A program made the position numbers and the translations under genes. Of a stretch of 18,023 bases of DNA, positions 12,430 through 16,524 are shown one piece after another. This DNA comes from a bacterium (GTDB taxonomy: Bacteria > UBA9089 > CG2-30-40-21 > SBAY01): NCBI GenBank assembly GCA_040757115.1, contig JBFLYA010000069.1:1-18023 (forward strand), in the 5' to 3' direction. Positions within the stretch are counted from its first letter, which is position 1. Every line of letters starts with the position of its first letter. The notes under the pieces were generated by a model. That model did no database searches and had not been told where the DNA came from. It saw nothing but the letters and a program-made list of their open reading frames with translations.

Positions 12430-12500
12430 ATGCCAAATTGGGAGTATAGAGGAACAAGTTCGTTTATAAACAAGTTAGATGAAATTGCTGCCCTGAAATA
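12430..12500 (+). other. Possible C-terminal remnant of a lost protein just upstream of the island
   Basis: An open frame reads MPNWEYRGTSSFINKLDEIAALK and stops at 12498-12500, directly before the ribosome-binding site of the TIR-like gene; it stays open leftward into element G. The residues look protein-like, but 23-27 codons can be chance. If real, it would be the tail of an earlier gene in the operon cut by element G. Confidence 0.25.
12474..12483. repeat. Left boundary inverted repeat of the defence island (GTTAGATGAA)
   Basis: GTTAGATGAA is an exact inverse of TTCATCTAAC at 16433-16442, about 20 bases after the last island gene. GTTAGAT fits the integron core-site consensus GTTRRRY. 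The left copy is 33 bases before the first island gene. Confidence 0.5.
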
Positions 12501-12515
12501 AGGAGAAATTAAAAA

Positions 12516-12923
12516 ATGGCTAAAAGAAGAATATTTATTAGTTTTGATCATGATGATACTTCACAAGTCTTGGGTTTTATGGGGTTGCGAAATATAATTG
12601 ACAATTTTGATTTTTATAATCACAAACTTGATAGAAGAATAAATAGTCGCGATAAGGACTATGTCTGTAGAGTTATTAGAGATGAGTATATTAAGCCAGC
12701 ATCAGTAACAGTTGTTCTTATTGGTAACAATACTGCTAATAGTCCATGGGTGAAATGGGAAATCGAAGAAAGTAAACGACAGGACAAAGGTATCTTAGGA
12801 ATTTATTTAAAGGATAGCCGAGGCAATGTCCCGGTTGGTATTCCTTCAAATGCTGTTGGTAGCTGGCAACCTGATAAATTTGCAGATTGGATTGAATGGG
12901 CATATCAACAATCAAGGAAATAG
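12516..12923 (+). CDS. TIR-like domain protein (DUF1863/ThsB type), candidate immune sensor
   Basis: A 135-residue, single-domain protein. The N-terminal strand RRIFISFDHDD with GF close after it, then a VTVVLIGNNTANSPWVKWEIEES core, is the MTH538/DUF1863 TIR-like fold, the type seen in Thoeris ThsB. W78-V79-x-x-E82-I83 lines up by eye with the WVHKEI of SARM1, whose Glu is the NAD-cleaving residue, so E82 is the likely catalytic residue. In Thoeris, ThsB senses phage and makes a cyclic ADP-ribose isomer that activates the ThsA effector. No ThsA (SIR2-SLOG or macro-domain) gene is present; the next gene, two bases on, is a membrane protein that could be the effector. GGAG lies ahead of the ATG at suitable spacing. 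The role in defence is inferred from family and neighbours. Confidence 0.8.
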   Translation: MAKRRIFISFDHDDTSQVLGFMGLRNIIDNFDFYNHKLDRRINSRDKDYVCRVIRDEYIKPASVTVVLIGNNTANSPWVKWEIEESKRQDKGILGIYLKDSRGNVPVGIPSNAVGSWQPDKFADWIEWAYQQSRK

Positions 12924-12925
12924 AG

Positions 12926-13648
12926 ATGATTGAAGAATATTCATTCCTCCTGAGTTTTATCTTAAAAATTATCAAAAAGCTCGTGGAATATACCACATTA
13001 TTTACATTTTGGGACGGCATTTTACTCACTGCTATAATAGTTGTGATAATATATTTAGTTACACAGCATAAAAAATATAGAGTTAAATCAGCAACTATAA
13101 ATATACCCTTTTCACTTGGCAATATCACCTACGAACTAACAGAAGAAGATAGAATTGTTGCGTGGAAATTATATATTCAACTAAAGACACGCAAAGCAGC
13201 TCTTATCTTTGATGAAGATTATGATGTTGTTGCGGATGTATATGATTCCCTTTATGAGATTTTCCCGATTGCAAGAGATCTTCTTATGGGTCTTCCTTTA
13301 GATGAGATTCAGAGAAAGCCTAATATAGCAGATTTGGTTCTTCGAGTTCAAAATGATGGCATCCGACCTCATCTGACAAAATGGCAATCTGATTTTCGTA
13401 GATGGTGGGCCAAGGCAATAGAATACCCCGGTAACAAAGATAGTAGACCCCAGGATATTCAAAAGAATTATCCAAAATACGAAGAACTAATCAAAGAATT
13501 AAAGGAAATGAATTTGGAACTTAACAAATACGCTGAAAAGTTACTATTCATTGCTCAAACATCCGCACAGGCAAGACGAAAAATGAAAAAGCCTATACCA
13601 ATACAACCATCTGGTGGCAAAGAGAGACGAAACAATTATGAAGAATAG
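12926..13648 (+). CDS. Membrane protein of unknown family paired with the TIR-like gene, candidate effector
   Basis: A 240-residue protein I cannot assign to a named family. Residues about 5-28 are amphipathic or hydrophobic (FLLSFILKIIKKLVEYTTLF), followed by one clear membrane helix (about 33-49, ILLTAIIVVIIYLV). The rest is soluble and mostly helical, including IQLKTRKAALIFDEDYDVVA, VYDSLYEIFPIARDLLMGLP and RPHLTKWQSDFRRWW blocks. The last 30 residues are basic and rich in Lys, Arg and Pro. I recall similar membrane-anchored proteins beside TIR-like genes, but not a name. The start at 12926 has AAGGAA upstream and lies two bases after the TIR gene's stop, so the pair is translationally coupled; an ATG at 12896 overlaps the TIR gene and is less likely. 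Neither a macro domain nor SIR2 is visible. Membrane disruption is a guess. Confidence 0.75.
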   Translation: MIEEYSFLLSFILKIIKKLVEYTTLFTFWDGILLTAIIVVIIYLVTQHKKYRVKSATINIPFSLGNITYELTEEDRIVAWKLYIQLKTRKAALIFDEDYDVVADVYDSLYEIFPIARDLLMGLPLDEIQRKPNIADLVLRVQNDGIRPHLTKWQSDFRRWWAKAIEYPGNKDSRPQDIQKNYPKYEELIKELKEMNLELNKYAEKLLFIAQTSAQARRKMKKPIPIQPSGGKERRNNYEE

Positions 13649-13699
13649 AAAGTATGAACAAAACGAATATGCTCATCTAAGTAATAAAGGAATAGAGTA

Positions 13700-14569
13700 A
13701 TGTATAAAGCATCTGATGTTTTCAGTGATACAGATAGAATCTTTTGTGCTGAACAACCTGCAAAATATGAAACAAGAAAACTTATACCTTTTTATTACAA
13801 TTCTGAGAAGAAGATTAAACTTTTTAATGGGGATGCATTACATCTTCTCAAGAAAATACCTGATAGTTGCATTGATATGATTTTTGCTGACCCACCTTAT
13901 TTTGGAAATCAATCAGGATTGATTATTAAGCGTACTGACGGACATGCAGAAACCTTTGATACTCAAAAGGCGAAATTTGCTTACTCAAAATCGCTTCAAT
14001 ATCAGTTTGAGTTTCATTACACCTGGTTGAAAGAGGCTCAAAGAGTCTTAAAAGATGGTTCTACCATCTGGATAACAGGTACATATCATAGCATTGGAGT
14101 AGTAAATGTTGTCCTTCAGGATTTGGGGTTCAAGATTCTCAATGATATAATCATTCATAAAATAAATGCTCCCCCTAATTTTAAGGGGTCATGTTTCAGA
14201 GCAGTTACTGAAACTATGCTTTGGGCTAAAAAAAATTTTAAAGGTAAAACTAAATTTAACTACTGGACAATGAAACAATTGAATGGCGGGGTTCAGATGA
14301 AAAATCTTTGGGAATATTGGGCAGAGAAGAATCCATTTAGACACCCCGCTACTAAACAACCAATTATTTTAGAATATGCAATATTGGCAGGTTCTCACGA
14401 AGGAGATTTGATTCTTGACCCATTTGCTGGTTCAGGAACTACTGGTTTTGTGGCTCAAGGACTAAACCGAAAATGTGTTATGATAGAGATAGACCGTAAT
14501 TATTGTCAGCTTATCAAAAGCAGGATAGAGGGAAAATATGGACAATTCAAAAGAAAAACAAAAAATTAA
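13700..14569 (+). CDS. Beta-class DNA methyltransferase (DpnA-like) of the EcoRV-like system
   Basis: Transfers a methyl group from S-adenosylmethionine to a base in DNA, probably adenine N6. Motif IV ADPPYFGN (D64-P-P-Y67) comes before motif I, LDPFAGSGTTG (240-250); this order defines the beta class. The layout recalls DpnA (M2.DpnII): SCIDMIFADPPY, then WLKEAQRVLKDGSTIWITGTYH, then NAPPNFKGSCFRAVTETMLWAKK. DpnA can methylate single-stranded DNA, which helps incoming plasmids survive; whether this enzyme does is unknown. The 30-residue N-terminal extension is not typical and may be specificity-related. It has 289 residues and starts 51 bases after the membrane-protein gene. Its 3' end overlaps the endonuclease gene by 32 bases. 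Confidence 0.9.
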   Translation: MYKASDVFSDTDRIFCAEQPAKYETRKLIPFYYNSEKKIKLFNGDALHLLKKIPDSCIDMIFADPPYFGNQSGLIIKRTDGHAETFDTQKAKFAYSKSLQYQFEFHYTWLKEAQRVLKDGSTIWITGTYHSIGVVNVVLQDLGFKILNDIIIHKINAPPNFKGSCFRAVTETMLWAKKNFKGKTKFNYWTMKQLNGGVQMKNLWEYWAEKNPFRHPATKQPIILEYAILAGSHEGDLILDPFAGSGTTGFVAQGLNRKCVMIEIDRNYCQLIKSRIEGKYGQFKRKTKN

Positions 14570-15344
14570 GGAAGAATTCCGTAACAAACTTCTAAAATAT
14601 GTTGATCAGTTTAATTTGGCTGTATCAACTGATAAAGGAGACTGGATTGTAAAAGGATTTATAGATATTGCAAAGAATATCTATACTATCTCTGTGGATA
14701 CCAAAGTTGTCTCAAAAATCATGGAGCTTCTTCTTTTCCCTAAAATATGTCAATTTGCTCAAGAAAATTACTATAAGATGGTTCTATGTAAAGAACAAAA
14801 CTTTTATCCGGATATGAGTTTTATTGATCTTGCTAACAATAAGTATGCATTAGATATTAAAAGCACTTATCGAAAAGATGGAAAGAGGGTAAATGGAATG
14901 ACATTGGGAGCATTCACAGGTTATTTTCGTGACCGCAAGAGTAAGAAAAATATTACTTTCCCTTATGATGAATATGTTGGTCACTTCGTTTTAGGAATAA
15001 TCTACTCCCGTGCAGATGAAAATGTGGATGAAAGAAAAATTTATCATCTTGATAATCTTCAGAATATAACTTCAGTCGTTAAGGATTTTACCTTCTTTGT
15101 ACAAGAAAAATATCTGATTGCAGAAGATAGACCAGGAAGTGGCAATACAAAAAATATAGGCTCGGTGGTCAATATTGATGAGTTGATAAATGGAAGCGGG
15201 CCTTTTGCAAAATTTGGAGAAGAGGTATTTGATGATTATTGGATGTATTATCTGACGAAGGATATGGCAAGAGCTGTAGATCTCAAAGGTTCTCCTTATA
15301 AAAATCTCAAAGAATATTTACAATATAAAAAATTAGAGGTATGA
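14538..15344 (+). CDS. EcoRV-like type II restriction endonuclease
   Basis: Predicted to cut double-stranded DNA at GATATC or a close relative. The protein (268 residues, EcoRV 245) follows EcoRV along most of its length. Catalytic PD...DIK is QNFYPD (87-92) with D92, then ALDIKS with D106 and K108, matching EcoRV D74, D90 and K92. VVSKIMELLLFPKI matches the EcoRV segment with E45. TLGAFTGYFRDRKSKKNITF and the PYDEYVGHFVLGIIYSR block also match. The recognition loop GSGNTKN (200-206) matches EcoRV GSGNTTN, with Lys in place of EcoRV Thr187. GAGGG is at good spacing before the ATG. The overlap with the preceding methylase gene suggests that methylase is made first. From memory of the EcoRV sequence, not a search. 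Confidence 0.92.
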   Translation: MDNSKEKQKIKEEFRNKLLKYVDQFNLAVSTDKGDWIVKGFIDIAKNIYTISVDTKVVSKIMELLLFPKICQFAQENYYKMVLCKEQNFYPDMSFIDLANNKYALDIKSTYRKDGKRVNGMTLGAFTGYFRDRKSKKNITFPYDEYVGHFVLGIIYSRADENVDERKIYHLDNLQNITSVVKDFTFFVQEKYLIAEDRPGSGNTKNIGSVVNIDELINGSGPFAKFGEEVFDDYWMYYLTKDMARAVDLKGSPYKNLKEYLQYKKLEV

Positions 15345-15347
15345 AAG

Positions 15348-16415
15348 ATGAATAGAGCCAATCCCCAACAGATGACATTGATTAAGGAAATTCCTGTTTT
15401 TCCTTCTACCCGCTATCAAGGGAGCAAACTAAAGATAGTAGATTGGATATGGGAAAATATTAAAGATTTAAAGTTCCATACCGCTCTTGATGCATTTGGA
15501 GGCACGGGGTGTGTTGCCTACCTCTTTAAACAGAAAGGGAAACAGGTTACTTACAATGATATATTGAAATTCAATTGGTTTATAGCACTTGCCTTGATTG
15601 AAAATGACTCTGTAACCCTGACCTCAAATGATATAACCTTTTTAGTTACTAATCATAAAGAGATTAAATATCCTTCTTTTGTTTATGATACATTCAAGGA
15701 CATCTATTTTACCGATGAAGAAAATCAATGGATAGATGTTGTTATTACTAATATAGATCAATTAGACAATCTATATAAAAGGGCTCTTGCTTATTATGCC
15801 CTTTTTCAGTCTTGTATAATTAAAAGACCATTTAATCTCTTTCATAGAAAGAATCTTTACTTAAGGTTTTCTGATGTTGAAAGGAACTTTGGGAATAAAA
15901 CCACATGGGATACACCTTTTTCCACACATTTTAGAAAGTTTATTGGTGAAGTCAATCAAGCAGTGTTCTCTAATGGTTTGCAGAATAAAGCAGTTAATTT
16001 AGATGTTTTTGATGTTGAAGGAAACTTTGATCTGGTTTATATTGATACGCCATATATTTCAAAAAAGGGTGTAGGGGTTGATTATTTTAGTTTCTATCAT
16101 TTTTTAGAGGGTTTGGTGAGGTATTCTGAATGGGAAAAGATGATTAATTATCGCACAAAACATAAAAAATTGAGAAGTGATAAAAATCCGTGGATTGATA
16201 AAAATCAAATTTGTTCAGCTTTTGAAAGATTAATTAAGAAGTTTGCAGATAGTATTCTGGTTATTTCATACAGGTCAGATGGTATCCCTACAATTTCCGA
16301 ATTGGTAAATCTGTTAAAGAAATACAAATCAGATGTAGAAGAATTAACGCGCAAAAATTACAAATATGTTTTGAGCAACAACGATTCGGAAGAGGTCTTA
16401 CTTATTGGAAAATAG
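15348..16415 (+). CDS. D12-class adenine-specific DNA methyltransferase
   Basis: Alpha-type (D12/MTase_2-like) N6-adenine methyltransferase, expected to protect the host at the endonuclease's site. RYQGSKLKIVDWI (22-34) and motif I ALDAFGGTGCVAYLF (46-60) are at the N-terminus, and motif IV YIDTPY (231-236) lies near the middle with Thr in place of the more usual Pro, as seen in some D12 enzymes. It has 355 residues. M.EcoRV is also of this class, but is smaller and has DPPY. AGAGG is upstream of the ATG; the gene starts three bases after the endonuclease stop, so the two are one transcript. Which of the two methylases guards GATATC cannot be told from sequence; this one is the natural candidate. 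Confidence 0.9.
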   Translation: MNRANPQQMTLIKEIPVFPSTRYQGSKLKIVDWIWENIKDLKFHTALDAFGGTGCVAYLFKQKGKQVTYNDILKFNWFIALALIENDSVTLTSNDITFLVTNHKEIKYPSFVYDTFKDIYFTDEENQWIDVVITNIDQLDNLYKRALAYYALFQSCIIKRPFNLFHRKNLYLRFSDVERNFGNKTTWDTPFSTHFRKFIGEVNQAVFSNGLQNKAVNLDVFDVEGNFDLVYIDTPYISKKGVGVDYFSFYHFLEGLVRYSEWEKMINYRTKHKKLRSDKNPWIDKNQICSAFERLIKKFADSILVISYRSDGIPTISELVNLLKKYKSDVEELTRKNYKYVLSNNDSEEVLLIGK

Positions 16416-16435
16416 AAAAGTAGGGAAGCAACTTC

Positions 16436-16524
16436 ATCTAACACAGCATAAAAGGTTCGTGCCGTGCGGCACTCACCCAAATTTTTGCTTCGCAAAAACT
16501 TCTTTTATGCTGACACCGTTATAC
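16436..16524 (+). other. attC-like folded recombination site closing the island
   Basis: ATCTAAC (16436-16442) fits the R'' consensus RYYYAAC, and GTTATAC (16518-16524) fits R' GTTRRRY at six of seven bases. Between them CAGCATAAAAG (16444-16454) pairs exactly with CTTTTATGCTG (16502-16512); inside are hairpins GTGCCG-TG-CGGCAC (16459-16472) and TTTTTGC-TTC-GCAAAAA (16482-16498). ATCTAAC complements GTTAGAT at the island's left end, as expected for the 5' end of an integron cassette. The spacers are uneven (1 and 5 bases), unlike a classical attC, so this is a candidate only. Confidence 0.45.

Follow-up and report, generated by a model that had tools for sequence, protein, structure and literature searches.

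The TIR-partner locus

The window, that is, the whole stretch of 18,023 nucleotides that was analysed, carries a pair of adjacent genes encoding a ThsB-type TIR protein and a partner predicted to be anchored in the membrane, the main domain of which is designated DOM throughout. The pair and its surroundings comprise the following features:

12486–16516: variable island cargo between lspA and lgt, consisting of the TIR-DOM pair and an EcoRV-type restriction-modification set
12516–12923, forward strand: ThsB-type TIR gene, 135 aa, matching PF08937
12926–13648, forward strand: TIR-partner gene with an N-terminal membrane helix and a predicted cytosolic DOM; the family has no name
13004–13060, forward strand: transmembrane helix of the partner, residues about 27–45 of the 240-aa form, from hydropathy and DSSP on the model
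13088–13558, forward strand: DOM, a beta-hairpin followed by a helical bundle, residues about 55–211
13700–14569, forward strand: N6/N4 methyltransferase (PF01555, 3e-46), island context outside the pair
14538–15344, forward strand: EcoRV-family restriction endonuclease (PF09233, 2e-107), island context outside the pair
15348–16415, forward strand: D12 methyltransferase (PF02086, 5e-17), island context outside the pair

According to Pfam, a dksA-like gene and lspA lie upstream, and the two methyltransferases and the endonuclease lie downstream, followed by lgt. The restriction-modification set (13700–16415) places one EcoRV-family endonuclease between methyltransferases of two classes, N6/N4 and D12. 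An earlier note on this DNA had located the pair in a restriction island, and comparison with a genome of the same genus (G005, locus L136) bears this out: its lspA and lgt flanks are 98.7% and 97.7% identical to those of the window, yet other cargo lies between them, and the interval equivalent to window positions 12486–16516 contains no TIR, partner or restriction genes. The cargo has thus been swapped, and in the window restriction-modification genes directly adjoin the pair. At L136:4736–7490 the interval is filled by unrelated genes, those for a histidine kinase/response regulator protein, a response regulator and an AAA ATPase, possibly another island cargo. A scan for promoters and terminators returned counts near the shuffle expectation.

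The genome of the window harbours a further cluster (L108:3791–5090, G000:C45), apparently within a type I restriction-modification operon, in which a 145-aa protein predicted to have membrane helices accompanies two ThsB-type TIR genes.

The TIR protein and its membrane-anchored partner

The reading of the first gene as ThsB-type and TIR-like is upheld by profile searches: ThsB_TIR (PF08937) matches at 72.4 bits against a curated cut-off of 21.2 (E 4.3e-20), several PADLOC ThsB models match (E 3.8e-15), with PDC-M50B as the top PADLOC model (E 1.5e-15), and solved TIR/ThsB chains in the PDB (8wcf, 8fz9, 9b7d, 6lhy) match as well. The predicted catalytic glutamate is E82, within SPWVKWEIEES, and together with G70 and T73 it does not vary across 28 aligned homologues. 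Among TIR proteins that accompany DOM, the catalytic glutamate is retained in 40 of 41 of the ThsB type and in all 34 of the TIR_2 type. A Pfam scan of the window TIR revealed no further domain able to execute a response.

The partner gene can be read from ATG 12926, giving 240 aa, or from ATG 12896, which adds 10 residues (250 aa) and overlaps the TIR gene. The former lies 2 bp past the TIR stop and is preceded by AAGGA; it is the more probable start, since L008, the closest relative of the partner, begins at the equivalent methionine (MIENISFFLS versus MIEEYSFLLS). Both open reading frames thus occupy the positions originally given, and the tight coupling proposed for them holds. Comparison of the window pair with L008 indicates purifying selection (dN/dS 0.20 and 0.18) and an excess of changes at third codon positions; because of this excess and the conservation of the pair between phyla, the two reading frames are not products of chance.

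In the model an amphipathic helix (residues 2–25) precedes the single hydrophobic helix of the partner, which is followed on its C-terminal side by positive charge. The same asymmetry is found in 52 of the 59 family members that possess a membrane helix (TM members), where positive charge is higher in the 15 residues that follow the helix than in those ahead of it (mean +2.1 versus −0.9), and DOM is therefore predicted to be cytosolic. Membrane anchoring, likewise claimed at the outset, agrees with this arrangement of one predicted transmembrane helix and a cytosolic C-terminus.

DOM has no convincing match among known families and structures

AlphaFold2 confidently models the full-length partner with a pLDDT of 88 and DOM alone (~150 residues) with a pLDDT of 93.7 and a pTM of 0.86, in either case with DOM as a beta-hairpin followed by a helical bundle. 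The earlier statement that the partner has no visible SIR2, SLOG or macro domain is confirmed: searches with Pfam, NCBIfam and PADLOC placed it in no family, and Pfam detected no SIR2, SLOG, macro, caspase-like or peptidase domain in it, and neither SIR2 nor SLOG in those neighbouring genes that were scanned. The macro domain is also absent (Pfam) from 57 aligned relatives, and the model, with its one beta-hairpin plus helices, is unlike the alpha/beta macro fold. These 57 relatives gave no PADLOC match, and their Pfam and NCBIfam matches were few, scattered and weak. Occludin_ELL, which matched 2 members only (E 0.007), was set aside as noise.

Searches of PDB sequences with the single partner sequence and with a profile yielded noise only, in the form of coiled-coil and designed bundles. 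Foldseek found nothing at E 0.001 or better, either for the full model against the PDB and viral structures or for DOM alone against the PDB. Likenesses to bundles reported by VIA-align (FAT, designed proteins and a helical ubiquinol oxidase subunit) do not exceed Z 8.4, a level that is meaningless for bundles, and were discarded. A missing structural match proves neither a new fold nor a lack of nucleotide binding.

Conservation within the family is concentrated in ten positions. Scored over 56–60 sequences, T88, R89, S108, F113, R117, N143, G145, R147, P148 and L150 (240-aa numbering) are invariant; most are polar or glycine/proline, and they are common to soluble and TM forms from many phyla.

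Distribution of the DOM family

Relatives of the partner were first met on two plasmids and on viral contigs, after which a genome scan yielded 80 loci. These are spread over Aminicenantes, Zixibacteria, Bacillota, Thermotogota, Spirochaetota, WOR-3, Acidobacteriota, Pseudomonadota, Bacteroidota, Verrucomicrobiota, Cyanobacteriota and Actinomycetota, and include a Methanosarcinaceae archaeon. Searches of phage records for partner relatives and of plasmids for close DNA relatives found none. Profile searches of whole genomes, chosen regardless of TIR content and with every sample containing its centre genome, detected the family in 7/395 Bacteroidota, 13/244 Cyanobacteriota, 5/398 Pseudomonadota and 2/398 Bacillota; outside the phylum of the window it thus occurs in 0.5–5% of genomes. 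Within that phylum the partner is present in one genome of 19, that of the window itself.

The 109 non-redundant members divide into 59 with a membrane helix and 50 that are soluble, and a tree separates a TM group coupled to ThsB-type TIRs from a soluble group coupled mostly to TIR_2 proteins. Two ThsB-coupled members, L012 and L014, fall within the TM clade and have no membrane helix; on this tree the helix was lost within the clade. At two Opitutia loci of the TM clade (L059:1063–2055 and L061:6785–7459) the helix is replaced by an HTH-like N-terminal region, a regulator-like design. The DOM proteins of a WOR-3 bacterium (L019) and of a member of the Leptospiraceae (L062) are near-identical, which shows that transfer between phyla has occurred. 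The TIR gene beside DOM in the latter is split into two frames of 114 and 82 aa (L062:6312–6860) and may be broken or mis-sequenced.

DOM is genetically linked to TIR proteins

A TIR gene on the same strand within 2.5 kb accompanies 54 of the 59 TM members and 36 of the 50 soluble ones, so that the survey of genomes shows the pair to be conserved elsewhere. For 41 TM members (often with an overlap of a few bases) and 30 soluble members the TIR gene lies within 100 bp; the members unlinked to TIR include some at contig ends and some distant ones. This linkage goes far beyond chance because genomes hold few TIR genes, with 0–14 TIR_2 genes per genome in ten sampled and four of the ThsB type in that of the window. 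TM forms partner ThsB-type TIRs, and soluble forms partner mostly TIR_2 proteins bearing GUN4, TPR, WD40, FGE-sulfatase or methyltransferase domains. The possibility that soluble DOM is unlinked to TIR was ruled out, since a ThsB-only profile had overlooked the TIR_2-type neighbours, which Pfam and a second profile detected.

Two or more TIR genes share a single DOM at 25 of 59 TM loci as against 1 of 50 soluble loci. Distances among TIR proteins and among their DOM partners correlate weakly (Mantel r 0.29, 0/5000 permutations), which implies that TIR partners are also exchanged around DOM. Judged from gene neighbourhoods and distribution, the TIR-DOM pairing is real, ancient and mobile.

Its distribution suggests that the pair is probably a widespread two-gene anti-phage module. 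TIR proteins are found outside defence too, and the HTH-like fusions of L059 and L061 would suit a TIR-based housekeeping or regulatory unit; we nevertheless consider such a non-defence role very improbable, given that the family is patchy and mobile, that the window pair sits with a restriction system in swapped island cargo, and that one relative (L006) resides on a prophage-like contig and another on a plasmid beside CRISPR genes.

Other genes recur near DOM. A gene of the Nmad2 family (PF18753) is present at 21 TM-type loci, in many cases lying between the TIR and DOM genes, for instance at L042:2995–3624 (E 7e-68) and L022:5080–5712; L022 also contains MazG_C, and L051 contains HMUDK_hel, the helical domain of a 5-hmdU DNA kinase. 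Nmad2, MazG_C and HMUDK_hel connect modified nucleotides with the TIR operon. A Nuc_deoxyri_tr2-like gene occurs near DOM at nine loci, mainly of cyanobacteria (L003:388–777, which matches PF15891, L065:7510–8025, L086:988–1425 and six others). At L129:1462–3446 a soluble DOM gene stands directly 3' of a TIR-like fragment and of a gene for a 337-aa protein that, by eye, looks similar to SLOG cluster 2, an arrangement that echoes the TIR-SLOG gene adjoining DOM in Aureispira (L003, LD_cluster2, E 8e-55). A distant soluble DOM gene overlaps a gene for a caspase-like CHAT protein (L087:6992–9231), hinting that DOM may pair with proteases as well.

How the pair may work

A TIR signal controlling a new kind of membrane effector had been proposed for this locus. 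The Thoeris-like TIR, the unfamiliar partner and the conserved pairing stand; an effector role at the membrane as the general function of the family was dropped, with half of the members soluble, the helix gone from L012 and L014, and an HTH-like region in its place in L059 and L061. Since soluble, helix-less and HTH-fused forms exist, the common task of DOM, whether sensing of a TIR signal or binding of TIR, must be one that works without a membrane. DOM accordingly looks like a receptor for a TIR signal or a regulator of TIR, with the membrane as its place of action in the clade of the window.

We tentatively favour, at somewhat less than even confidence, a two-gene immune module in which the product of the TIR protein is bound by DOM and the membrane helices perturb the inner membrane. 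Following what is known of the family, the TIR protein would sense infection and its conserved glutamate would turn NAD+ into an ADP-ribose-type product. This product would then be bound by the cytosolic DOM, plausibly via R89, R117, R147, N143, S108 and T88. In the third and weakest step, binding would cause the single membrane helices to cluster and thereby perturb the inner membrane. This last step is modelled on the TM-macro ThsA of type II Thoeris, the receptor domain of which is unrelated. There, macro domains bind nucleotide, oligomerise and cluster the transmembrane parts, and both EcThsB1 and EcThsB2 work with one TM-macro ThsA (PMC11204291). Relatives without a helix would have the receptor step in common and a different output.

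Several observations are consistent with this receptor model. TM-type DOM genes are closely linked to TIR genes in genomes that hold few of them, and the many multi-TIR loci recall the several ThsB proteins per ThsA in Thoeris. The window TIR has no other response domain at its disposal, DOM is predicted to face the cytosol, and the TM-macro ThsA sets a precedent for nucleotide-induced oligomerisation with clustering of transmembrane parts. A diffusible signal is favoured because one DOM serves many TIRs and its invariant residues are polar; the exchange of TIRs around DOM, apparent from the weak distance correlation, would suit such a signal as well. To judge by their composition, the ten invariant columns appear more like a ligand site than an interface with varied TIRs. 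Against the model, 50 of 109 members have no membrane helix and no separate effector is evident beside soluble DOM, the ThsB-coupled L012 and L014 do without the helix, and the bundle matches no known nucleotide-binding fold.

Alternatively, DOM would bind TIR directly as a regulator or scaffold, silencing a TIR protein that is itself the NAD+-depleting effector or nucleating its active assembly, in the TM clade at the membrane. A soluble protein of 165 aa that has no effector part is more in keeping with a regulator than with an executor, the TIR partners of soluble forms look self-sufficient (TIR-GUN4, TIR-TPR, WD40-TIR, TIR-FGE-sulfatase), the membrane helix is dispensable, and the TIRs paired with DOM belong to two widely differing classes; the Foldseek and VIA neighbours, at noise level, are generic adaptor-like bundles (FAT, vinculin). 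Direct binding is harder to reconcile with a single DOM serving several dissimilar TIRs in many operons, with the weak co-divergence of TIR and DOM and with a strongest conservation that is site-like and not interface-like. We regard it as only slightly less probable than the receptor model.

The polar residues that are invariant in all forms of DOM could also belong to an enzyme acting on the TIR product, either to convert it as a maturation step or to destroy it as an off-switch, with the TIR protein or a further gene as the effector, and the recurrence of nucleotide-metabolism genes (Nmad2 at 21 TM loci, Nuc_deoxyri_tr2 at nine, MazG_C in L022, HMUDK_hel in L051) agrees with such a role. 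Foldseek and VIA matched no known enzyme fold, however, and the window operon offers no other candidate effector, which makes an enzymatic function improbable.

To our knowledge, the relay of signals from bacterial TIR enzymes is understood for few receptors only, namely SLOG, macro and caspase-like domains. The receptor model in its widest form would make DOM an undescribed cross-phylum receptor domain for NAD-derived signals made by TIRs, a third class beside SLOG and macro, membrane-anchored with ThsB-type TIRs and soluble or HTH-fused elsewhere; as a whole, this generalisation strikes us as rather unlikely. DOM is in any case a compact partner of wide distribution that can be tested directly, common to ThsB-type and multi-domain TIRs and to bacteria and a Methanosarcinaceae archaeon. 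If it binds the TIR product, a large set of orphan TIR operons would be explained at once and a new sensor for such molecules would be gained; if it binds TIRs directly, it would represent a general TIR regulator.

Comparison with known TIR systems

A preprint of December 2025 by Yirmiya et al. is said to survey TIR systems systematically. The literature searched, the coverage of which does not extend to that survey, contains no description of the TIR-DOM pair, and the partner family may already be described there. As in Thoeris in the broad sense, a TIR gene and a candidate effector share one conserved operon (54 of 59 TM members), and the pair is classed with TIR (Thoeris-like) signalling, its partner being none of the known ThsA proteins. 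Types I, II and IV are ruled out as exact matches because of the domain content of the partner.

Type I Thoeris has a TIR of the same family (PF08937); its ThsA is of the SIR2-SLOG kind, whereas the window partner and the neighbouring genes contain neither domain, and SLOG does occur beside a DOM relative in the TIR-SLOG gene of Aureispira. Type IV likewise joins a TIR with one operon partner, there a caspase-like protease, whereas the window partner contains no caspase-like domain and it is the distant soluble DOM of L087 that adjoins a CHAT gene. The PADLOC candidate PDC-M50 resembles the pair in that, among PADLOC models, the window TIR scores best with PDC-M50B; its second component is not the window partner, because no PADLOC model matches the partner or its 57 relatives. 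Type VI shares TIR-based signalling and employs 2'cADPR, according to PMC13232231 (citing Yirmiya et al. 2025), in which the effector is not named and the comparison is thus one of signal only. Type II is alike in placing ThsB-type TIRs beside a protein that combines a membrane part at its N-terminus with a putative receptor domain in the cytosol, and several TIRs per partner are common in it as at the TM-type DOM loci; its ThsA carries a macro domain, in contrast to the beta-hairpin and helical bundle of the window partner.
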